Positions 29,393-43,361 of a stretch of 64,000 nucleotides of DNA are shown here, one piece after another. The notes below the pieces were generated by a model. The model saw nothing but the letters and a program-made list of their open reading frames with translations. It ran no database searches and had not been told where the DNA came from. The stretch covers positions 1-64,000 of the forward strand of contig NZ_JXSL01000025.1 in the NCBI RefSeq assembly GCF_000829825.1, read 5' to 3'. The DNA comes from Paramagnetospirillum magnetotacticum MS-1 (GTDB lineage Bacteria > Pseudomonadota > Alphaproteobacteria > Rhodospirillales > Magnetospirillaceae). Position 1 is the first letter of the stretch; each line of letters opens with the position of its first letter. A program made the position numbers and the translations under genes.

Positions 29393-30637
29393 CTAAAGAT
29401 CCACCATGTCGAACCCCTCCTTGCTCCTGTCTAGGGTGCGAGTGAGCTCAGCTATCATTTCTGCGGTACGCACATGTGCATAATGGGTTTCGAGGTAGCT
29501 GACTGAACAGCCCATGTTCTGGGCCAGCAGCAGCGGATTGGTATCACCGTTCATGATGCGAAACGTGGCATAGGTATGGCGCAGGGAGTAGTAGGTCAGC
29601 TTGGCGGCTTCCATGCCTGCCGCTGCCATCAGGCTCTTCCATTGCCTGTAGTACTCGGCCTTAGCGAGAGGCTCTCCCGTTTTCTGATCGGCGAACAGGT
29701 AATCTTTTTTGTCGGTGAACCGAGAGGTTTCCTTTAGCCGCCTGAAATAGCTTCCTCCCCGGCCAATGACTTCCCTGCTCTTCCCGGTCTTGGTGATGTC
29801 TGCGCTGAGAATCAGCCGAACAGTAAGATTGGCGTCCTTGGCGTCAGGGCTTTTGCCCCTTTCGGCCATGATGCTGGCAACATTAAACCATCTGAGCCGC
29901 CTCAATTCGCCGAACCGAATGCCCGTATTGACGGAAATCAGTATGAAATCTCGGATGATCTGGCGGACCAGCTTCTCGTCGTCATCCTTTGAGGAATTGA
30001 TCCACCCTCTGAACGAACGATAGAACTGCTGATATTCCTGCGGCAGAAACGCTTCCCGCCTTGGAACCTCCTTGATCTTCAGTTTTTCCCATAACGGAAG
30101 CTGATGGTGGGTCGCTCGTCTGGCCTCGATGGCTTCCTTGAACAGATGCCCAATCGTCGATCGCTCGTTTTTGATTGTGATGAGGGAGGCGTCACCAAGG
30201 CGGAATGTCGTGTACTTCCTGAACGCTTCCCCCTGAATCTTGTTAATCCGGGTCGTTGAGCCGAGGAAGCGTTCAAGGGCACGAAGCTGACTGCGGACGG
30301 TCACCAATCTGCCAGCTGTTATAAGCCCCTTTGTAACCTCGATCTGCCGCTTATCCATGTACCACTCGACCAATTCGCCAAGGGTGCATGAAAATATTCG
30401 CTCGCCATTTCTGGCTGCCACCCTCAGATCAAGAACAATGTCATCGGCCATCTTGAAGGCTTTATCACGGTCCTTGGTCTTCAGTGATTTTGTGAGGTAC
30501 TTCCCCTCATCTGCAATCCAGCACGAAAAGTAGTAATTTCCGCCAGATTTCTTTGTTTTGTATATTTTAGCCGAGCTATTTGGGATTTTCTCGACGTCAT
30601 AGGTCCATTTGTCGTGATCATCAGTTGAATTATGCAT
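29393..30637 (-). CDS. Tyrosine recombinase (island integrase, 414 aa)
   Basis: Site-specific integrase, presumed to insert the island at guaA. The N-terminal part (about 20-65) resembles an arm-binding domain, a SAM-like core-binding domain follows (about 85-190), then the catalytic domain. Catalytic residues: Arg in NTGIRFGELRRL, Arg-His in YSLRHTYATF, and the His and nucleophile Tyr in YLETHYAHV. The His that usually precedes LRHT is Tyr here, as in some relatives. ATG 30637 is chosen over TTG 30643. It is oriented like guaA and next to its end. Confidence 0.93.
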   Translation of the reverse strand: MHNSTDDHDKWTYDVEKIPNSSAKIYKTKKSGGNYYFSCWIADEGKYLTKSLKTKDRDKAFKMADDIVLDLRVAARNGERIFSCTLGELVEWYMDKRQIEVTKGLITAGRLVTVRSQLRALERFLGSTTRINKIQGEAFRKYTTFRLGDASLITIKNERSTIGHLFKEAIEARRATHHQLPLWEKLKIKEVPRREAFLPQEYQQFYRSFRGWINSSKDDDEKLVRQIIRDFILISVNTGIRFGELRRLRWFNVASIMAERGKSPDAKDANLTVRLILSADITKTGKSREVIGRGGSYFRRLKETSRFTDKKDYLFADQKTGEPLAKAEYYRQWKSLMAAAGMEAAKLTYYSLRHTYATFRIMNGDTNPLLLAQNMGCSVSYLETHYAHVRTAEMIAELTRTLDRSKEGFDMVDL

Positions 30638-30724
30638 TTTCAATGACCCACGCTGTTTGCAACTCGTTGGAGTTTGGCCTGCGCTAATCCATTGAAAAAC
30701 AACAACACTAGAATCGCAACATCA

Positions 30725-30749: not shown

Positions 30750-30786
30750 CTAACGCATTGATATTAAACAATTCTAGAGCTTCAAC

Positions 30787-33712: not shown

Positions 33713-34204
33713 TCATAGCGCGACGGTCAGGTGGGCGTGGCCGGTATGTTCGAGAAAGCGGACCAGTTCCGCAGGTGTCAGGGTGGTGGTCATGGTATTG
33801 CGCAAGGGGTGATAGTTGATCAGCTCCTGGGCCATCATCTCGGCGTCCAGAACCACGCTGACCCGGTATTCGCGGTCGTTGACGAGGGCGAAGGGCGTCA
33901 CCGATCCCGGTTCGATCCCCAAAACCTCGGTCAGCAGCGCGGCGGAACCGAAGGACAACCGGGCGGAACCGATCTTTTCCGGCAGGGATTTCAGGTCGAT
34001 GCGCCGTTCGGCGGGCGCCACCACCAGCCAGAGCCTTCCCTTGCCATCCTTGAGGAATAGGTTCTTGCAATGCGTGCCGGGGATGGAGCCCCAGACCCGG
34101 TGCCCCTCTTCCACGGTAAAGGCCGCGTCGTGATGGTGGGTGACCGCCCGGATATCCAGCCGGTCGAACAGCGCGAACAGGTCGTCTGGCGTGGCGGGCG
34201 GCAT
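33713..34204 (-). CDS. YbaK/ProX-type aminoacyl-tRNA deacylase (163 aa)
   Basis: A stand-alone editing-domain protein that hydrolyses mischarged tRNA, in ProX/PrdX relatives Ala-tRNA(Pro). The family pattern is visible: HHHDAAFTVEEG, then GTHCKNLFLKDGKGRLWLVV, with the conserved Lys in the NLFLKD segment, and SVTPFALVND followed by a terminal NYHPLRNTMTTTLT. The ATG at 34204 overlaps the stop of the upstream GGDEF/EAL gene by one base, so it is translated from the same transcript. Confidence 0.92.
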   Translation of the reverse strand: MPPATPDDLFALFDRLDIRAVTHHHDAAFTVEEGHRVWGSIPGTHCKNLFLKDGKGRLWLVVAPAERRIDLKSLPEKIGSARLSFGSAALLTEVLGIEPGSVTPFALVNDREYRVSVVLDAEMMAQELINYHPLRNTMTTTLTPAELVRFLEHTGHAHLTVAL

Positions 34205-36243
34205 CACAGCCTGTGAATGGGCTTGGGCATGGCGATGTGGAAGCCCTGGCACAGATTGATCCCCATCTTGCGTAACAGCACCATGGTGTTTTCGTCCTCG
34301 ACGAATTCGGCGATGGTGATCATGCCGAAGCGCCGGGCCATGGAGTGGATGTGCTCGACCATGATGCGGTCGCGCTCGTCGGTGACCACATGGCGGATGA
34401 AGCTGCCTTCGATCTTCACATAATCGACAGTGATGTATTTGAGATAGAGGAAGGACGAGAAGCCCGAGCCGAAATCGTCGAGCGCGAAACCCAGCCCCGA
34501 GCTGCGCAACTCGTTGATCATGGTGACGATGTCGCCGAAATGGGGCAGGGCTTCCCGCTCGGTGATTTCCAGCACCACCCGCGACGGCGAGACTCCGGCG
34601 GCCCGCAGCCGGTCGGGAATGGACATCATGCGCTCGCGGTCGGTCAGGCTCTTGGCCGACAGATTGACGAAGATCTTGGCATTGCCCAGCTTGCCCGCCG
34701 CCATGGCCTCCAGGGCGCCGTCGAACACGGCGGCGTCGATCTCTCCGGCCAGTCCCAGTTCCTCTGCCGATTCGATGAAGTCTCCGGCACAGACCGCCTG
34801 ATCGCCATCCACCACGCGGGCCAGCACCTCATAGGCGGCGATGGAGCCGTCCTCGGCGGCGACGATGGGCTGGTAGTAAGGCACCAGCCGTCCCTCGGCC
34901 AGGGCGCTGCGCACCATCTCGCCCTGGCTGAAGATGGCCACGGTGGCGTCCTCGCCCTCGCCGATAACCGCCACCTGATTCTTGCCCGACCGCTTGGCCT
35001 TGTAGATGGCCACGTCGGCGGCGATGGCCAGCTTCTGGGCGTCGTCGGCATTCTCGGGATAGCCCACCAGACCGACCGAGGCGGTGATGCGCACGCCGCC
35101 CACCGGCAGCCCCAATTGGCAATCGGCGATGGCCTGGCGCATCTTCTCGGCCGCCGCGATGCCTTCTTCCATGGTGGTCTCGGGCAGCAGGACCGAGAAT
35201 TCATCGGCTCCCACCCGGGCCAGCATGTCGGTGCGCCGCACTTCGCGGTTCAGCACGCTGGCCAGTTCCTTCAGCACCAGATCGCCGATGGGATGGCCAA
35301 AGGTGTCGTTGATGTTCTTGAAGTCGTCCAGATCGATCTGGGCGACGCAGAAGGGATGGCCGTGCCGCTGGGACCGGTCGATCTCGTGGTCGAGGAACTC
35401 GTCGAATTTGCGCCGGTTGTAAAGCCGGGTCAGCGGATCGCGGATGGACAGGTCCTCCAGCCGGTGCTGGTAGTCCTCCACAGTGCGCAGCAGCTTGTTG
35501 AAGTAGTCGGACAGGTCGGCCACTTCGGCGATGATGCCCTTGCTCTCGACCCGGCGCGACAGGTCGGTGTGCAAGATGATCTCCTGCATCAGCGTCACCA
35601 TGTTGGTGATGGGACGCGCCACGAAGATCTTGAGCTTGAAATACAAAGCCACCGACAACAGCATCAGGATGGCGAAGAAATAGGCCAGGACCGTGTTCAG
35701 CACGTAGTCCAACGAAACCTTCAGCGCGTGCACAGGATAGACGATGTCGATGACGCCGTTGATGTCGCCCACCTTGGCCGCCGTATGGCAAACCAGGCAT
35801 TCCTGCTTGACGATCAGGGGATACAGGTAGCGGATGCCCGTGGGGCTGGGATGCAGCGTCTCCTTGCCGCTGGCCAGGACTTCTTGCAGCAGCGGGTCGT
35901 GCCGGACGATGGCGACGTCGTTGGCGATCTCGCCGAACTGCTCGATGACCGGACGTCCGCGGACCACATGGATGGACAGGTCGGGTAGGGCGGCTTGCAG
36001 CCGGGTGATCACCTCGCCGATCTCGGCCTTGCTCCAGCCCTTGCGCATGGCGGCGTAAAGGGTCTCGAACACCAGGGTCGAGGTCTGGCGCGCCTCGTCG
36101 CGGGCAAGGTCCTGCACCGACTTCTCGCGTACGTGACCGGAGATGAGGACGACTACACCCAGCGCCAAAATGGTGGCGGTCAGGGACAGCAGAAACACCA
36201 CGCGGGTGATGCTGATCCTGGCTTTGAATTTGAACTCGTCCAT
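34204..36243 (-). CDS. Heme-c-motif sensor GGDEF/EAL protein (679 aa)
   Basis: Predicted c-di-GMP enzyme. Membrane helices at about 13-35 and 182-204 flank a periplasmic domain of the Tll0287-like/DUF3365 type, which contains a single CxxCH heme c motif (CLVCH, residues 149-153). HAMP follows (about 205-258), then GGDEF (about 265-425) and EAL (about 435-679). The GGDEF signature is GADEF, a conservative change, and the inhibitory RxxD site is kept (RRTD, 336-339). EAL begins YEVLARV, keeping the metal-binding Glu, and DDFGSGFSSFLYLK is intact. It may be bifunctional or mainly a phosphodiesterase. The periplasmic heme suggests redox or ligand control. Confidence 0.93.
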   Translation of the reverse strand: MDEFKFKARISITRVVFLLSLTATILALGVVVLISGHVREKSVQDLARDEARQTSTLVFETLYAAMRKGWSKAEIGEVITRLQAALPDLSIHVVRGRPVIEQFGEIANDVAIVRHDPLLQEVLASGKETLHPSPTGIRYLYPLIVKQECLVCHTAAKVGDINGVIDIVYPVHALKVSLDYVLNTVLAYFFAILMLLSVALYFKLKIFVARPITNMVTLMQEIILHTDLSRRVESKGIIAEVADLSDYFNKLLRTVEDYQHRLEDLSIRDPLTRLYNRRKFDEFLDHEIDRSQRHGHPFCVAQIDLDDFKNINDTFGHPIGDLVLKELASVLNREVRRTDMLARVGADEFSVLLPETTMEEGIAAAEKMRQAIADCQLGLPVGGVRITASVGLVGYPENADDAQKLAIAADVAIYKAKRSGKNQVAVIGEGEDATVAIFSQGEMVRSALAEGRLVPYYQPIVAAEDGSIAAYEVLARVVDGDQAVCAGDFIESAEELGLAGEIDAAVFDGALEAMAAGKLGNAKIFVNLSAKSLTDRERMMSIPDRLRAAGVSPSRVVLEITEREALPHFGDIVTMINELRSSGLGFALDDFGSGFSSFLYLKYITVDYVKIEGSFIRHVVTDERDRIMVEHIHSMARRFGMITIAEFVEDENTMVLLRKMGINLCQGFHIAMPKPIHRL

Positions 36244-36369
36244 TTACCCCCGAATCCGTCAGATCAACGCCCTAATCCCCCGGCTCTTGATACTCATCAA
36301 GACGCCCGATGTCCAACTTTTCCACAATATGTGACGGAATGTGATCGGAGTTTGTCGGTCTCTCCTTGG

Positions 36370-38367
36370 TCACGCCGCTTCGTTGATGGGATGGCGCCCG
36401 GCGATCAGGCGGTGGAATTCCTCCTGCCAGCGGTTCTCCACATCGGGGGTAAGCTCCAGATTACCGTGCAGGCGACCGTTCTCGCATTCGCGTCCGACCA
36501 TGGACAACGCCACCGAGCAACCCTCGATCCGCACCTTGACCCGCATGCCCTTGCCCACCGGGCAGACATCGCCCTGGATGGTAAGGCCCTGTTCGGAAAT
36601 CTCGTCGAACACCACCGGGACCTCGACACCGCCCATATCGACCAGCCCTTTCATGCCCAGGGCGTAGCGTGGGCCGTTGCGGCGGTCCACTTCCTTGGTG
36701 GCGGTCCGCACCACCCGGATGATGACGCTTTTCAGCGATTCGATGGCGCGGGCCACATCGACGGAAATATCGTTGACCTTGGTGGCGCGTTCGCCGGTCA
36801 GGCTGGCCTCTTGCGAGACATCGGCGATCCGTTCGGCCACCTCGCTGGCGGCCTGGGTGGTCTGGGCAATGTTGCGGGCAATTTCGGCGGTGGCGGCGTT
36901 CTGCTGGCGGATGGCGCCAGCGACGCTGACCGAGACCTCCTCGACGCTCTTGATGGCCTGGGCGATTTCGCCGACGGAACTGACCGCCTCGGCTGTGGTG
37001 GCCTGGACTTCGTTGATCTGCGCCGAGATTTCCTCGGTGGCCTTGGCGGTCTGATTGGCGAGGTTCTTGACCTCGTTGGCCACCACGGCGAAGCCCTTGC
37101 CCGCCTCGCCCGCCCGCGCCGCCTCGATGGTGGCGTTCAATGCCAAAAGATTGGTCTGGGTGGCGATCTGGTTGATCAGGTCAGCCACTTCGCCGATGCG
37201 GTTCACGGCCGCCGACAGCCGGGTAATGGTATCTTGTGCCTTGCCCGCGGCGGTGACCGCACCGCCGGTGACCTGCCCGGCATTGGCGATCTGTTCTCCG
37301 ATCTCGCGGATGGAGGCGGAAAGTTCCTCGGCGGCGGCTGATACGGTCTGGGCGTTGGACAGGGCCTGAGTGGCGGCGGCGGCGACGCTTTGGCTGTTGC
37401 CGCCCACGGCGCCAGCCGAAGCCGCCATCTTGCCCGCGTTATCGGCCATCAGCGAGGTCTGGGCCGCCACCTGCTCGACGGCGGCGCGGGTTTCCAGTTC
37501 CACCGTCTCTGCCATGTTCTGCAAGGCGGCGATGCGCTCGGCTTGCGCCGTGGCGCGGTCTTCTTCCTGGGCGGTGCGCATGCGCTCGGCATCGCGCATG
37601 GCATCGCGGAAGACGCGCACGCTTCGCGCCATGTCGCCGATTTCGTCATGGGACTCCACCGAGGGAATCTCCATGGAGAGGTTGCCGCCCGCCAGGGTTT
37701 CCATGACGGCGGTCATACGGTTGATAGGCTGTGACACGCGTTTGAAGGCGGTCCATGCCGCCCAGCCGATGCCCGACGCCAATCCCAGCACCGCCAGCCA
37801 GATCATGGCCTGAAGGCGGCTTTCGTAGAACTCGTCCAGCCCCTGGACAAGTTCGGTGACCTTGGCGGCATTGGCGGCGGCCAGGACCTCGATATGTTTG
37901 TTCAGGGCCTGGCGATTGGCTCGGTTGGCGTCGTTGTCGCCGAAGGCACGGGCTTCGGTCGTTCCCACCTCGCGGCCCAGCCGGACCAGTTCGGCCCGGA
38001 ATTTGGCGAATTGGTCGGCTTGGTCGGCGGCGGGTTTGAACGCGGCCCGTTCGGCCTCGGGCACCATGGCCGACCATTGCGACATCAGGCGGCTGATTTC
38101 CGCGGTGTTCTTGAGAATGGCGGGGGCGTATTTCTCCGCCTCCTTGGCGTCCCGGCTCATATAGACGCCGCGCGAATCCATCACCACCGCATTGATCAGG
38201 CCGTTGACCTTCTCGCCGATCACCGCGCGCTGGGACGCCGATTCCATTTCCATCACATGCTGGTGATAGGTGGCCATGGAGCGGATTCCCACCAGGGCCA
38301 TGGCGATCGCGGCCAGTCCGACCAGACCGACGGCAGCGAAGATCCTGAGCTTCAGCGATAAGTGCAT
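36370..38367 (-). CDS. Chemoreceptor with C-terminal PilZ domain (665 aa)
   Basis: Methyl-accepting chemotaxis protein. Helices at about 9-29 and 192-210 flank a periplasmic helical sensor. HAMP follows, then the signalling coiled coil with the tip [20 protein letters not shown]. After the receptor, residues about 565-665 form a PilZ domain: DRRNGPRY supplies the RxxxR motif and [11 protein letters not shown] the D/NxSxxG motif. The receptor could therefore respond to c-di-GMP. It is encoded 127 bp from a c-di-GMP enzyme gene on the same strand. GGGGAGGG precedes the ATG. Confidence 0.95.
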
Positions 38368-42468: not shown

Positions 42469-42542
42469 TCCCTTCCGCGTTTCCCTCAGGGGCATGGTAT
42501 ATATCCTCGGATATGCCAGTGCTCCGGGGGGAGGATGTTCCG

Positions 42543-43361
42543 ATGCTTGAACTGACCGACGACCTGCGGATCGGCCATCCGGTGATCGACGCCGATCACC
42601 AGCGCCTGATCGAGATCATCAACGAGTTTCTTGAACACTCGAATGAGGTGAATCCGCAGATTCTGCACGAGACGCTGAAGTCCTTGCTGGCCTATGGCCG
42701 CGAGCATTTCGCGCGCGAGGAGGGTATCCAGCGCCAGTGTCTCTATCCCTATCAGCAGGGGCATTCGAACGAGCATAAATCCCTGCTTGATCAGGTGCGC
42801 GAGATCGCCAGGGCCTATTTCGTCGCCAAGACCAAGCCCCTGAACGCCACCTCGGTGCAAGACGTCAACGAACTGCTCAAGGCCTGGCTGATCGGCCACG
42901 TCAAAAAATTCGACACCAGCATGCGCGACTGGGTGGCGCCCTCCTTGGATATGGACGCCCCGCGGATCAAACTGGCCTCGCCCGATCTGGCGGCTCTGAT
43001 CATCAGCCCCAACGAGCGGAGCCGTGCGCGGCTGGCCGATCTTCTGAGCGAACTGGGAGCGTCAAAGGTTTTGCAGGCCGAGGACAGCATCACGGGGCTG
43101 GGCATGGCCTTCGGGGACCCGGTACCAGATTTCATTTTCTGCGATCTGGAAACCGAGCCCCTGGACGGCGGCGCCTTCGCCGGGGCGCTGCGCGGCAGCA
43201 ACAAGGCCTATATCACGCGGATACCGCTATTGCTGCTCCATGATGCCGAGGATGCTGAGGCCATTCAGAACGCCATGGCGGCGGGAGCCAGCGGCGTCTA
43301 CCCAAAATCCTTCAATCCGACGAATCTGGGGCGGTTGCTCAATCAACTGCTCTTGCGCTGA
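42543..43361 (+). CDS. Hemerythrin domain fused to a receiver-like domain (272 aa)
   Basis: Residues about 1-140 are a hemerythrin: HPVIDADHQRL, REHFAREEG, SNEHKSLL and GHVKKFDTSM supply His, Glu and Asp ligands. Residues about 155-272 look like a CheY-type receiver: the central Asp in FIFCDLE and the Lys in VYPKSFN are present. The usual acidic pair near the N-terminus is replaced by SPNER, so phosphorylation may be lost. The fusion suggests O2- or redox-dependent signalling. ATG 42543 follows GGGGAGG. Confidence 0.88.
   Translation: MLELTDDLRIGHPVIDADHQRLIEIINEFLEHSNEVNPQILHETLKSLLAYGREHFAREEGIQRQCLYPYQQGHSNEHKSLLDQVREIARAYFVAKTKPLNATSVQDVNELLKAWLIGHVKKFDTSMRDWVAPSLDMDAPRIKLASPDLAALIISPNERSRARLADLLSELGASKVLQAEDSITGLGMAFGDPVPDFIFCDLETEPLDGGAFAGALRGSNKAYITRIPLLLLHDAEDAEAIQNAMAAGASGVYPKSFNPTNLGRLLNQLLLR

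Follow-up and report, generated by a model that had tools for sequence, protein, structure and literature searches.

Two genes lying side by side on the minus strand of contig NZ_JXSL01000025.1 of Paramagnetospirillum magnetotacticum MS-1 raise the question of whether a heme-containing enzyme of cyclic di-GMP (c-di-GMP) metabolism signals to the chemoreceptor encoded next to it. A preliminary description, made from the sequence alone, had proposed that a GGDEF/EAL protein with a periplasmic CxxCH motif and a chemoreceptor ending in a PilZ domain together pass a redox or gas signal through c-di-GMP into chemotaxis. We examined this locus within a window of 64,000 nucleotides (the whole stretch analysed, positions 1 to 64,000 of the contig) and by comparison with related genomes. 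The domain layout, the conservation, the predicted folds and an FNR-type box between the two genes, all computed directly, lead us to favour, with moderate confidence, a reading in which the enzyme is a heme-c-controlled c-di-GMP phosphodiesterase, Met-ligated and under FNR/DNR-type regulation, that would act mainly on the general c-di-GMP pool.

The periplasmic domain of the enzyme resembles heme-c sensors

Pfam profiles recognised the GGDEF (2e-44) and EAL (4e-61) domains of the enzyme, and its CLVCH motif is located, in an AlphaFold2 model, between two long helices that contain the hydrophobic stretches, which bears out the description of a GGDEF/EAL protein with a periplasmic CxxCH motif. 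The N-terminal 260 residues were aligned with those of 57 relatives, from the Rhodospirillales order and mostly Campylobacterota. This alignment of 58 rows was derived from 61 references by omitting L073, L075, L077, L078, L094 and L132 and adding three close orthologs by hand; rows with at least 86% identity, matches shorter than about 140 residues, and L110, L133, L134 and L060-L063 had been dropped earlier. The invariant periplasmic residues include Met66, Gly69, Arg95, Cys149, Cys152 and His153, and the Met-Cys-Cys-His combination is present in every row (58/58). Two of the omitted rows, L077 and L078, likewise carry CxxCH and a Met at position 66.

When the sensor profile was compared with PDB sequences, the best match was the Geobacter sensor GSU0935 (3b42; E 0.032); the alignment is free of gaps between position 46 and Met66, and Met66 aligned with chain position 26 of 3b42. 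This position corresponds to Met60 of GSU0935, because the first heme cysteine, at chain position 106, is Cys140 in the numbering of the review PMC8396549. According to passages of the same review, Met60 is the distal ligand in one of the two crystal hemes and is thought to bind on reduction.

The predicted structure of the sensor (mean predicted local distance difference test score, pLDDT, 82.2; predicted TM-score 0.59) was compared with known folds. The top five Foldseek matches were a WalK-YycH model, Tll0287, GSU0582, a model of a methyl-accepting chemotaxis protein (MCP) and GSU0935, with E < 0.001 in the first two only; the values were 2.9e-4 for 5b82 (probability 1.00, TM-scores 0.28/0.41), 1.6e-3 for 3b47 and 3.1e-3 for 3b42. 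VIA returned Tll0287 with a Z of 9.8 (root-mean-square deviation, rmsd, 3.9 over 125 aligned residues), tied with other Cache domains, and thus places the model among Cache domains generally; GSU0582 and GSU0935 were not among its 50 listed entries, an absence that excludes nothing. At the level of the family, the PF11845 profile matched 55 of the 58 aligned members at E <= 0.1 (best 2.7e-5), and a HAMP profile matched 29 of them, the focal enzyme not being among these.

The domain shares with the sCache_heme family (DUF3365/Tll0287, PF11845), as described in passages of PMC12889525, the periplasmic Cache fold, the CxxCH motif and the fusion to signalling modules, GGDEF and EAL being among the outputs listed there. 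It differs from that family in scoring below the Pfam cut-off and in its invariant Met; neither Met nor methionine is mentioned in the main text of that paper, and the proteins characterised in those passages include no GGDEF/EAL member. With GSU0935 and GSU0582, as the review portrays them in part, it has in common CxxCH and the order transmembrane segment, sensor, transmembrane segment, HAMP, and with GSU0935 also the distal Met at the aligned position, whereas the output is GGDEF-EAL here and an MCP domain in those two proteins. We infer from these likenesses an sCache_heme-type domain in which heme would be covalently attached at CLVCH and ligated by Met in the manner of GSU0935.

The same genome encodes a second GGDEF/EAL-type protein, an open frame of 831 amino acids (aa) at G000:C27:505265-507382 (L041, L054), which matches PF11845 at 65.6 bits.

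The output module has a degenerate cyclase motif and a complete set of phosphodiesterase residues

The focal enzyme lacks the intact GG(D/E)EF motif of an active diguanylate cyclase, the second glycine being changed to give GADEF. All 13 intact members of the genus that were aligned carry GADEF or, in one species (L011 = L096), AADEF. The nine other full-length loci of the Rhodospirillales order have GGDEF in seven cases and GADEF in two, and a separate branch, mostly Campylobacterota, has HSDEF, HADEF or HADEY and has lost the I-site. Among 44 full-length rows, which include the focal enzyme and share some genomes with the genus and order counts, the motifs were GGDEF (17), HSDEF (12), GADEF (10), HADEY (2), AADEF (1), GGDEY (1) and HADEF (1). 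On a quick tree of 53 rows (22 of the Rhodospirillales order and 31 others) the state of the motif changes at least four times, a count that does not separate gain from loss, loss being our reading; long branches meet in this tree (L130, L124), and its change counts are minima on an uncertain topology. Outside the tree stood L086-L092 and L094-L098 (12 copies of genomes already included), the split L013 and rows that are not full GGDEF-EAL.

The catalytic set of EAL domains comprises the E of ExL, N, E, DD, K, E and Q. It is complete in 43 of the 44 full-length rows. The exception, from M. moscoviense BB-1 (L094/L059), keeps GGDEF and lacks the end of the EAL domain, the reverse of the trend. 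Because the cyclase motif is lost and the phosphodiesterase residues are kept, the output of the enzyme is likely to be c-di-GMP breakdown.

Characterised proteins are consistent with this polarity. In Vibrio fischeri VF_0985, an engineered GADEF drastically reduced the cyclase effects and led to phosphodiesterase-like behaviour, as reported in passages of PMC11575326. XOC_2335 of Xanthomonas oryzae pv. oryzicola resembles the focal enzyme in combining a natural GADEF with a complete EAL, and the available part of PMC4823724 ties it to motility, both motifs being needed for swimming; no heme sensor is mentioned for it there.

A perfect FNR-type box precedes the enzyme gene

Upstream of the heme/EAL gene, the spacer that separates it from the receptor gene contains the sequence TTGATGAGTATCAA, a perfect palindrome that fits TTGAT-N4-ATCAA and is the sole perfect FNR-type box in the window. 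Allowing at most one mismatch, six such boxes were found in the window against 1.23 expected; the whole genome holds four perfect boxes (none in the reversed control), the other three being located inside open reading frames (ORFs). The box is identical in 6 of the 16 orthologous upstream regions, all six with the receptor gene adjacent, and in these six genomes 14 of 14 box columns are invariant as opposed to 46 of 112 outside, a comparison in which the set was picked after the box had been seen. L094 yielded no anchor and is not among the upstream regions compared. DNR-type nitric oxide (NO) regulators use a similar box. The box suggests that an FNR/DNR-type regulator probably switches the heme/EAL gene at low oxygen or in denitrification in this lineage. 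No sigma-70 promoter-like site was found between the two genes (0.4 in shuffles); the two terminator-like sites detected (1.7 in shuffles) are both on the plus strand inside the receptor gene, with none between the genes. The box, the GADEF motif and the altered PilZ motif considered below are three features that the preliminary description had not contained.

A one-mismatch FNR-type box is also present at 30758-30771, between an integrase-like ORF (29393-30643, minus strand) and guaA, which the integrase-like ORF, judged by eye, adjoins. Integration beside guaA is typical of mobile elements.

The adjoining chemoreceptor ends in a PilZ-fold tail with an altered motif

The neighbouring gene encodes a chemoreceptor, as proposed, since Pfam identified MCPsignal (4.2e-29) and HAMP (3.9e-10) domains in its product. 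A four-helix-bundle sensor, considered from the sequence, was rejected, Pfam having given none. Among the NCBIfam matches listed for the two proteins (25 of 35 and 12 of 12), all were below cut-off apart from the GGDEF domain model, and neither protein was named.

The C-terminal PilZ domain stood as regards its fold and its first motif. PilZ (PF07238) scores below the Pfam cut-off in the receptor (15.7 vs 22.5 bits) and was not listed in a whole-receptor Pfam scan at E <= 0.1, and the same profile matches 31 of 32 aligned homologous tails at E <= 0.1. The model of the tail (mean pLDDT 86.8) matched 18 PDB chains at E <= 0.001 (best 1.7e-4), nearly all of them PilZ-domain proteins and some in complex with c-di-GMP, with TM-scores of about 0.45-0.59 by query and 0.29-0.66 by target. 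Both arginines of RxxxR are present in 32 of 32 tails. The second motif departs from the canonical form: ExSxxG takes the place of D/NxSxxG, with E in all eight aligned orthologs (S replaced by A in two) and in the fragment L024C of genome G008, hence in 9 of 9 orthologs, whereas the 24 other tails have D (17) or N (7) at this place. Passages of PMC3131395 report poor binding by PilZ proteins whose motifs are incomplete, and c-di-GMP binding by this tail may be weakened or altered. Two other MCPs in this genome have PilZ matches above the cut-off.

Receptors of related design are known. Tlp1 and Aer of Azospirillum brasilense, described in part of PMC6406031, likewise carry a C-terminal PilZ domain and are active in aerotaxis; the focal receptor differs in the ExSxxG of its tail and in a sensor region without Pfam assignment. 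In the magnetotactic relative M. gryphiswaldense, CetA2/CetB2 mediate oxygen-related chemoreception, and passages of PMC12442639 note that certain MCPs carry a PilZ domain, but the sensor of that system is FAD-based (flavin adenine dinucleotide), in contrast to the heme-c c-di-GMP enzyme studied here.

The pairing of enzyme and receptor

A full-length ortholog of the enzyme (at least 72% identity) was found in 16 of 40 genomes searched and in 14 of 17 within the genus. A receptor ortholog adjoins it in 8 of these 16 (G000, G001, G008, G009, G010, G012, G013 and G016), and the pairing persists down to 81% identity for the enzyme and 71% for the receptor. In the other genomes the surroundings vary. 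In G002 the order is prmA, enzyme, mlaC, with no receptor there, and in G007, where a TAG splits the enzyme gene, the receptor ortholog is found elsewhere (L050 5010-7034), following genes judged by eye to be sox-like, with cheB and a hemerythrin gene nearby. A cytochrome c gene follows the enzyme in G003 and G014 (L043 and L047; P. marisnigri SP-1 and P. kuznetsovii LBB-42), and in G003 (L043) so does a gene whose product combines GAF and HD domains.

With 61 MCP and 43 (of 43) GGDEF matches, and with the gene number assumed to equal genome length/1050, chance alone gives about 0.62 same-strand MCP-GGDEF neighbour pairs per genome and a probability of 0.46 of at least one; of 63 MCP matches obtained, two were not counted, one because it scored under the cut-off and the other because it was a further piece of a gene already included. 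Because of these numbers, adjacency alone does not go beyond what chance could produce, and it was rejected as proof of a circuit. Of the circuit originally proposed, what stands is that both proteins are real by sequence and predicted fold; the link into chemotaxis is plausible but does not follow from an adjacency at chance level.

It is quite conceivable, if short of probable, that the two genes are chance neighbours, a lineage-specific juxtaposition of genes that act independently. The abundance of MCP and GGDEF genes makes one adjacent pair unremarkable, the enzyme stands without the receptor between prmA and mlaC in G002, and the enzyme gene seems to carry its own promoter element. However, the pairing is kept over long divergence, which is suggestive of some selection on it, and MCP neighbours recur outside the immediate lineage. 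In a survey of 36 loci, mostly from Campylobacterota, an MCP gene lies directly upstream on the same strand in 4 (L099, L101, L103 and L115) of the 33 that show an upstream ORF, the MCP of L099 being cut at a contig end. Such neighbours are found in three separate regions of the enzyme tree (the Rhodospirillales order, Sulfuricurvum and Sulfurimonas L115), with at least five changes.

A dedicated one-to-one circuit, in which the heme enzyme sets local c-di-GMP and the PilZ tail of the adjacent receptor reads it, biasing chemotaxis or aerotaxis, is possible but rather unlikely. The persistence of the pair in eight genomes, the four upstream MCP genes and the use of PilZ tails by Tlp1 and Aer argue for it. 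Against it, the enzyme lacks an adjacent receptor in the other 8 of 16 genomes; in the one-contig genome G008 the receptor gene (L024) is frameshifted, its frames overlapping near 2496-2511, with the enzyme intact; the PilZ tail has ExSxxG; and the MCPs of L101 and L115 have no PilZ match at E <= 0.01. A bolder extension would have a low-oxygen-induced phosphodiesterase with a periplasmic heme c read NO or redox state and feed a co-encoded receptor whose altered PilZ tail is tuned to local c-di-GMP, with independent origins of the partnership among the relatives of Magnetospirillum and among sulfur-oxidising Campylobacterota; we regard it as speculative and improbable. The enzyme family and the PilZ-tailed receptor are both of kinds already known, and the pair was not named in the titles or abstract openings of the papers that searches of open-licence literature listed on DUF3365-GGDEF proteins and on Magnetospirillum PilZ and chemotaxis.

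Nitric oxide or redox state as a likelier signal than oxygen

A His/Met-ligated heme offers no free site before the Met departs, and this chemistry is one point against the improbable view that aerotaxis is served by direct sensing of oxygen at the heme. That view draws on the Desulfovibrio chemoreceptor DcrA, which contains heme c and to which a passage of PMC8396549 ascribes the sensing of both redox potential and oxygen, but the two sCache_heme proteins characterised in the 2026 preprint PMC12889525 form no stable O2 complex. Of these two, as set out in parts of that preprint, the HAMP-linked signalling protein binds NO with slow release and the stand-alone one looks redox-related. GSU0582 and GSU0935 bind NO and carbon monoxide, and their Met ligand switches with redox state, being released in a redox-linked manner (PMC8396549, in part). 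From these findings on relatives, NO or redox state appears likelier than O2 as the signal. Sensing of redox state or a gas, as first proposed, fits the characterised relatives, direct O2 sensing being its least supported part.

The enzyme was also compared with the nitrite reductase gene nirS. Counting strong nirS matches in 24 family genomes, both genes occur in 15, the enzyme only in 1 (G002), nirS only in 1 (G023) and neither in 7 (p 1.8e-4). If the weak Cytochrom_D1 match of G019, which is above the cut-off (5e-8), is counted, p becomes 0.0013, and adding the above-cut-off nirK of G018 and G019 gives 15/1/3/5 (p 0.007). Outside the family, several genomes carry nirS without the enzyme.

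Elsewhere in the window, at 42513-43361 on the plus strand, a hemerythrin domain is joined to a receiver-like domain (29.0 bits; Pfam cut-off 30.2) in a possible oxygen-linked signalling protein.

Gene layout

The features of the locus are collected in Table 1. The enzyme and receptor genes are indeed on the same strand, separated by 126 bp rather than the 127 bp first given. Downstream, the stop codon of the heme/EAL gene and the ATG of the YbaK-like gene share one base (TGATG), and these two genes probably belong to the same transcript.

Table 1. Features of the heme/EAL and chemoreceptor locus, in window coordinates
Feature	Coordinates	Strand	Basis or conservation
Aminoacyl-tRNA editing (YbaK-like) protein	33713..34204	(-)	
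Membrane protein of 679 aa with Cache-type (heme c predicted), HAMP-like, GGDEF and EAL regions	34204..36243	(-)	ORF + Pfam
EAL domain, aa 443-673; EVLAR motif; catalytic residues N, E, DD, K, E and Q present	34225..34917	(-)	
GGDEF domain, aa 267-423; RRTD I-site kept	34975..35445	(-)	
Degenerate cyclase motif GADEF	35197-35211	(-)	
Predicted sCache_heme-type sensor domain, about aa 38-178	35710..36132	(-)	AlphaFold2 model, Foldseek, profile match
CLVCH, putative heme-c attachment motif, aa 149-153	35785..35799	(-)	invariant 58/58
Met66, putative distal ligand of the heme; counterpart of GSU0935 Met60 in the profile alignment	36046..36048	(-)	invariant 58/58
FNR-type box TTGATGAGTATCAA, intergenic, upstream of heme/EAL gene	36287..36300	(-)	
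Chemoreceptor, 665 aa: membrane-anchored sensor region at the N terminus (no Pfam assignment), then HAMP, MCPsignal and a PilZ-fold tail	36370..38367	(-)	
PilZ-fold tail, about aa 561-655; RxxxR kept, ExSxxG replaces D/NxSxxG	36403..36687	(-)	

Proposed mechanism and significance

Several observations weigh against the reading of the enzyme as a heme-controlled phosphodiesterase. With PF11845 the focal sensor domain reaches 17.5 bits, short of the cut-off of 24.1, its sequence match to GSU0935 is weak, and the Foldseek matches to heme sensors are low, with TM-scores of 0.40-0.48 by target length and rmsd of 7.6-15.3 Å. Members of the Rhodospirillales order, the focal enzyme included, carry KIE where the Campylobacterota relatives carry KID, and this replacement might lower EAL activity; sister lineages keep GGDEF, so bifunctionality is possible there. 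Ten of the 16 orthologous upstream regions lack the FNR-type box even when one mismatch is allowed, among them those of the receptor-adjacent G012 and G001. Finally, the co-occurrence with nirS was rejected as proof of NO sensing: it follows ancestry, the genomes are not independent, and it weakens when nirK or the weak nirS match is counted.

With these reservations, the heme-controlled phosphodiesterase would work as follows. One heme c would be attached to the Cache-type domain in the periplasm, where His153 and probably Met66 would serve as its axial ligands, and oxidation or NO binding would displace Met66. The change of ligand would then travel through the second transmembrane segment and the HAMP-like region to the GGDEF-EAL module, where the GADEF domain would probably be inactive and regulatory, for example GTP-binding, and the EAL domain would hydrolyse c-di-GMP. 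In this lineage the gene would probably be switched by an FNR/DNR-type regulator when oxygen is low or nitrogen oxides are being respired in denitrification. The enzyme would probably act mainly on the general c-di-GMP pool and hence on motility and surface behaviour, and the adjoining chemoreceptor may be among those that read this pool, its PilZ-fold tail serving for the purpose. It is very doubtful that GADEF is tolerated and that the GGDEF domain retains cyclase activity, making the enzyme bifunctional or a net cyclase: the motif retains its D, E and F, the RxxD I-site is intact, and a literature passage describes Ser for the first glycine as tolerated in some cyclases, but here it is the second glycine that has changed, one species has AADEF, and GADEF as an active-site mutation curtailed the cyclase effects of VF_0985.

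If the phosphodiesterase reading is true, a family noted mainly for its heme sensor would gain a likely output here, c-di-GMP breakdown, by proteins whose cyclase half has worn out more than once. Furthermore, extracytoplasmic sensing of NO or redox state would be tied to c-di-GMP and swimming in bacteria of the oxic-anoxic boundary, which are often denitrifiers.

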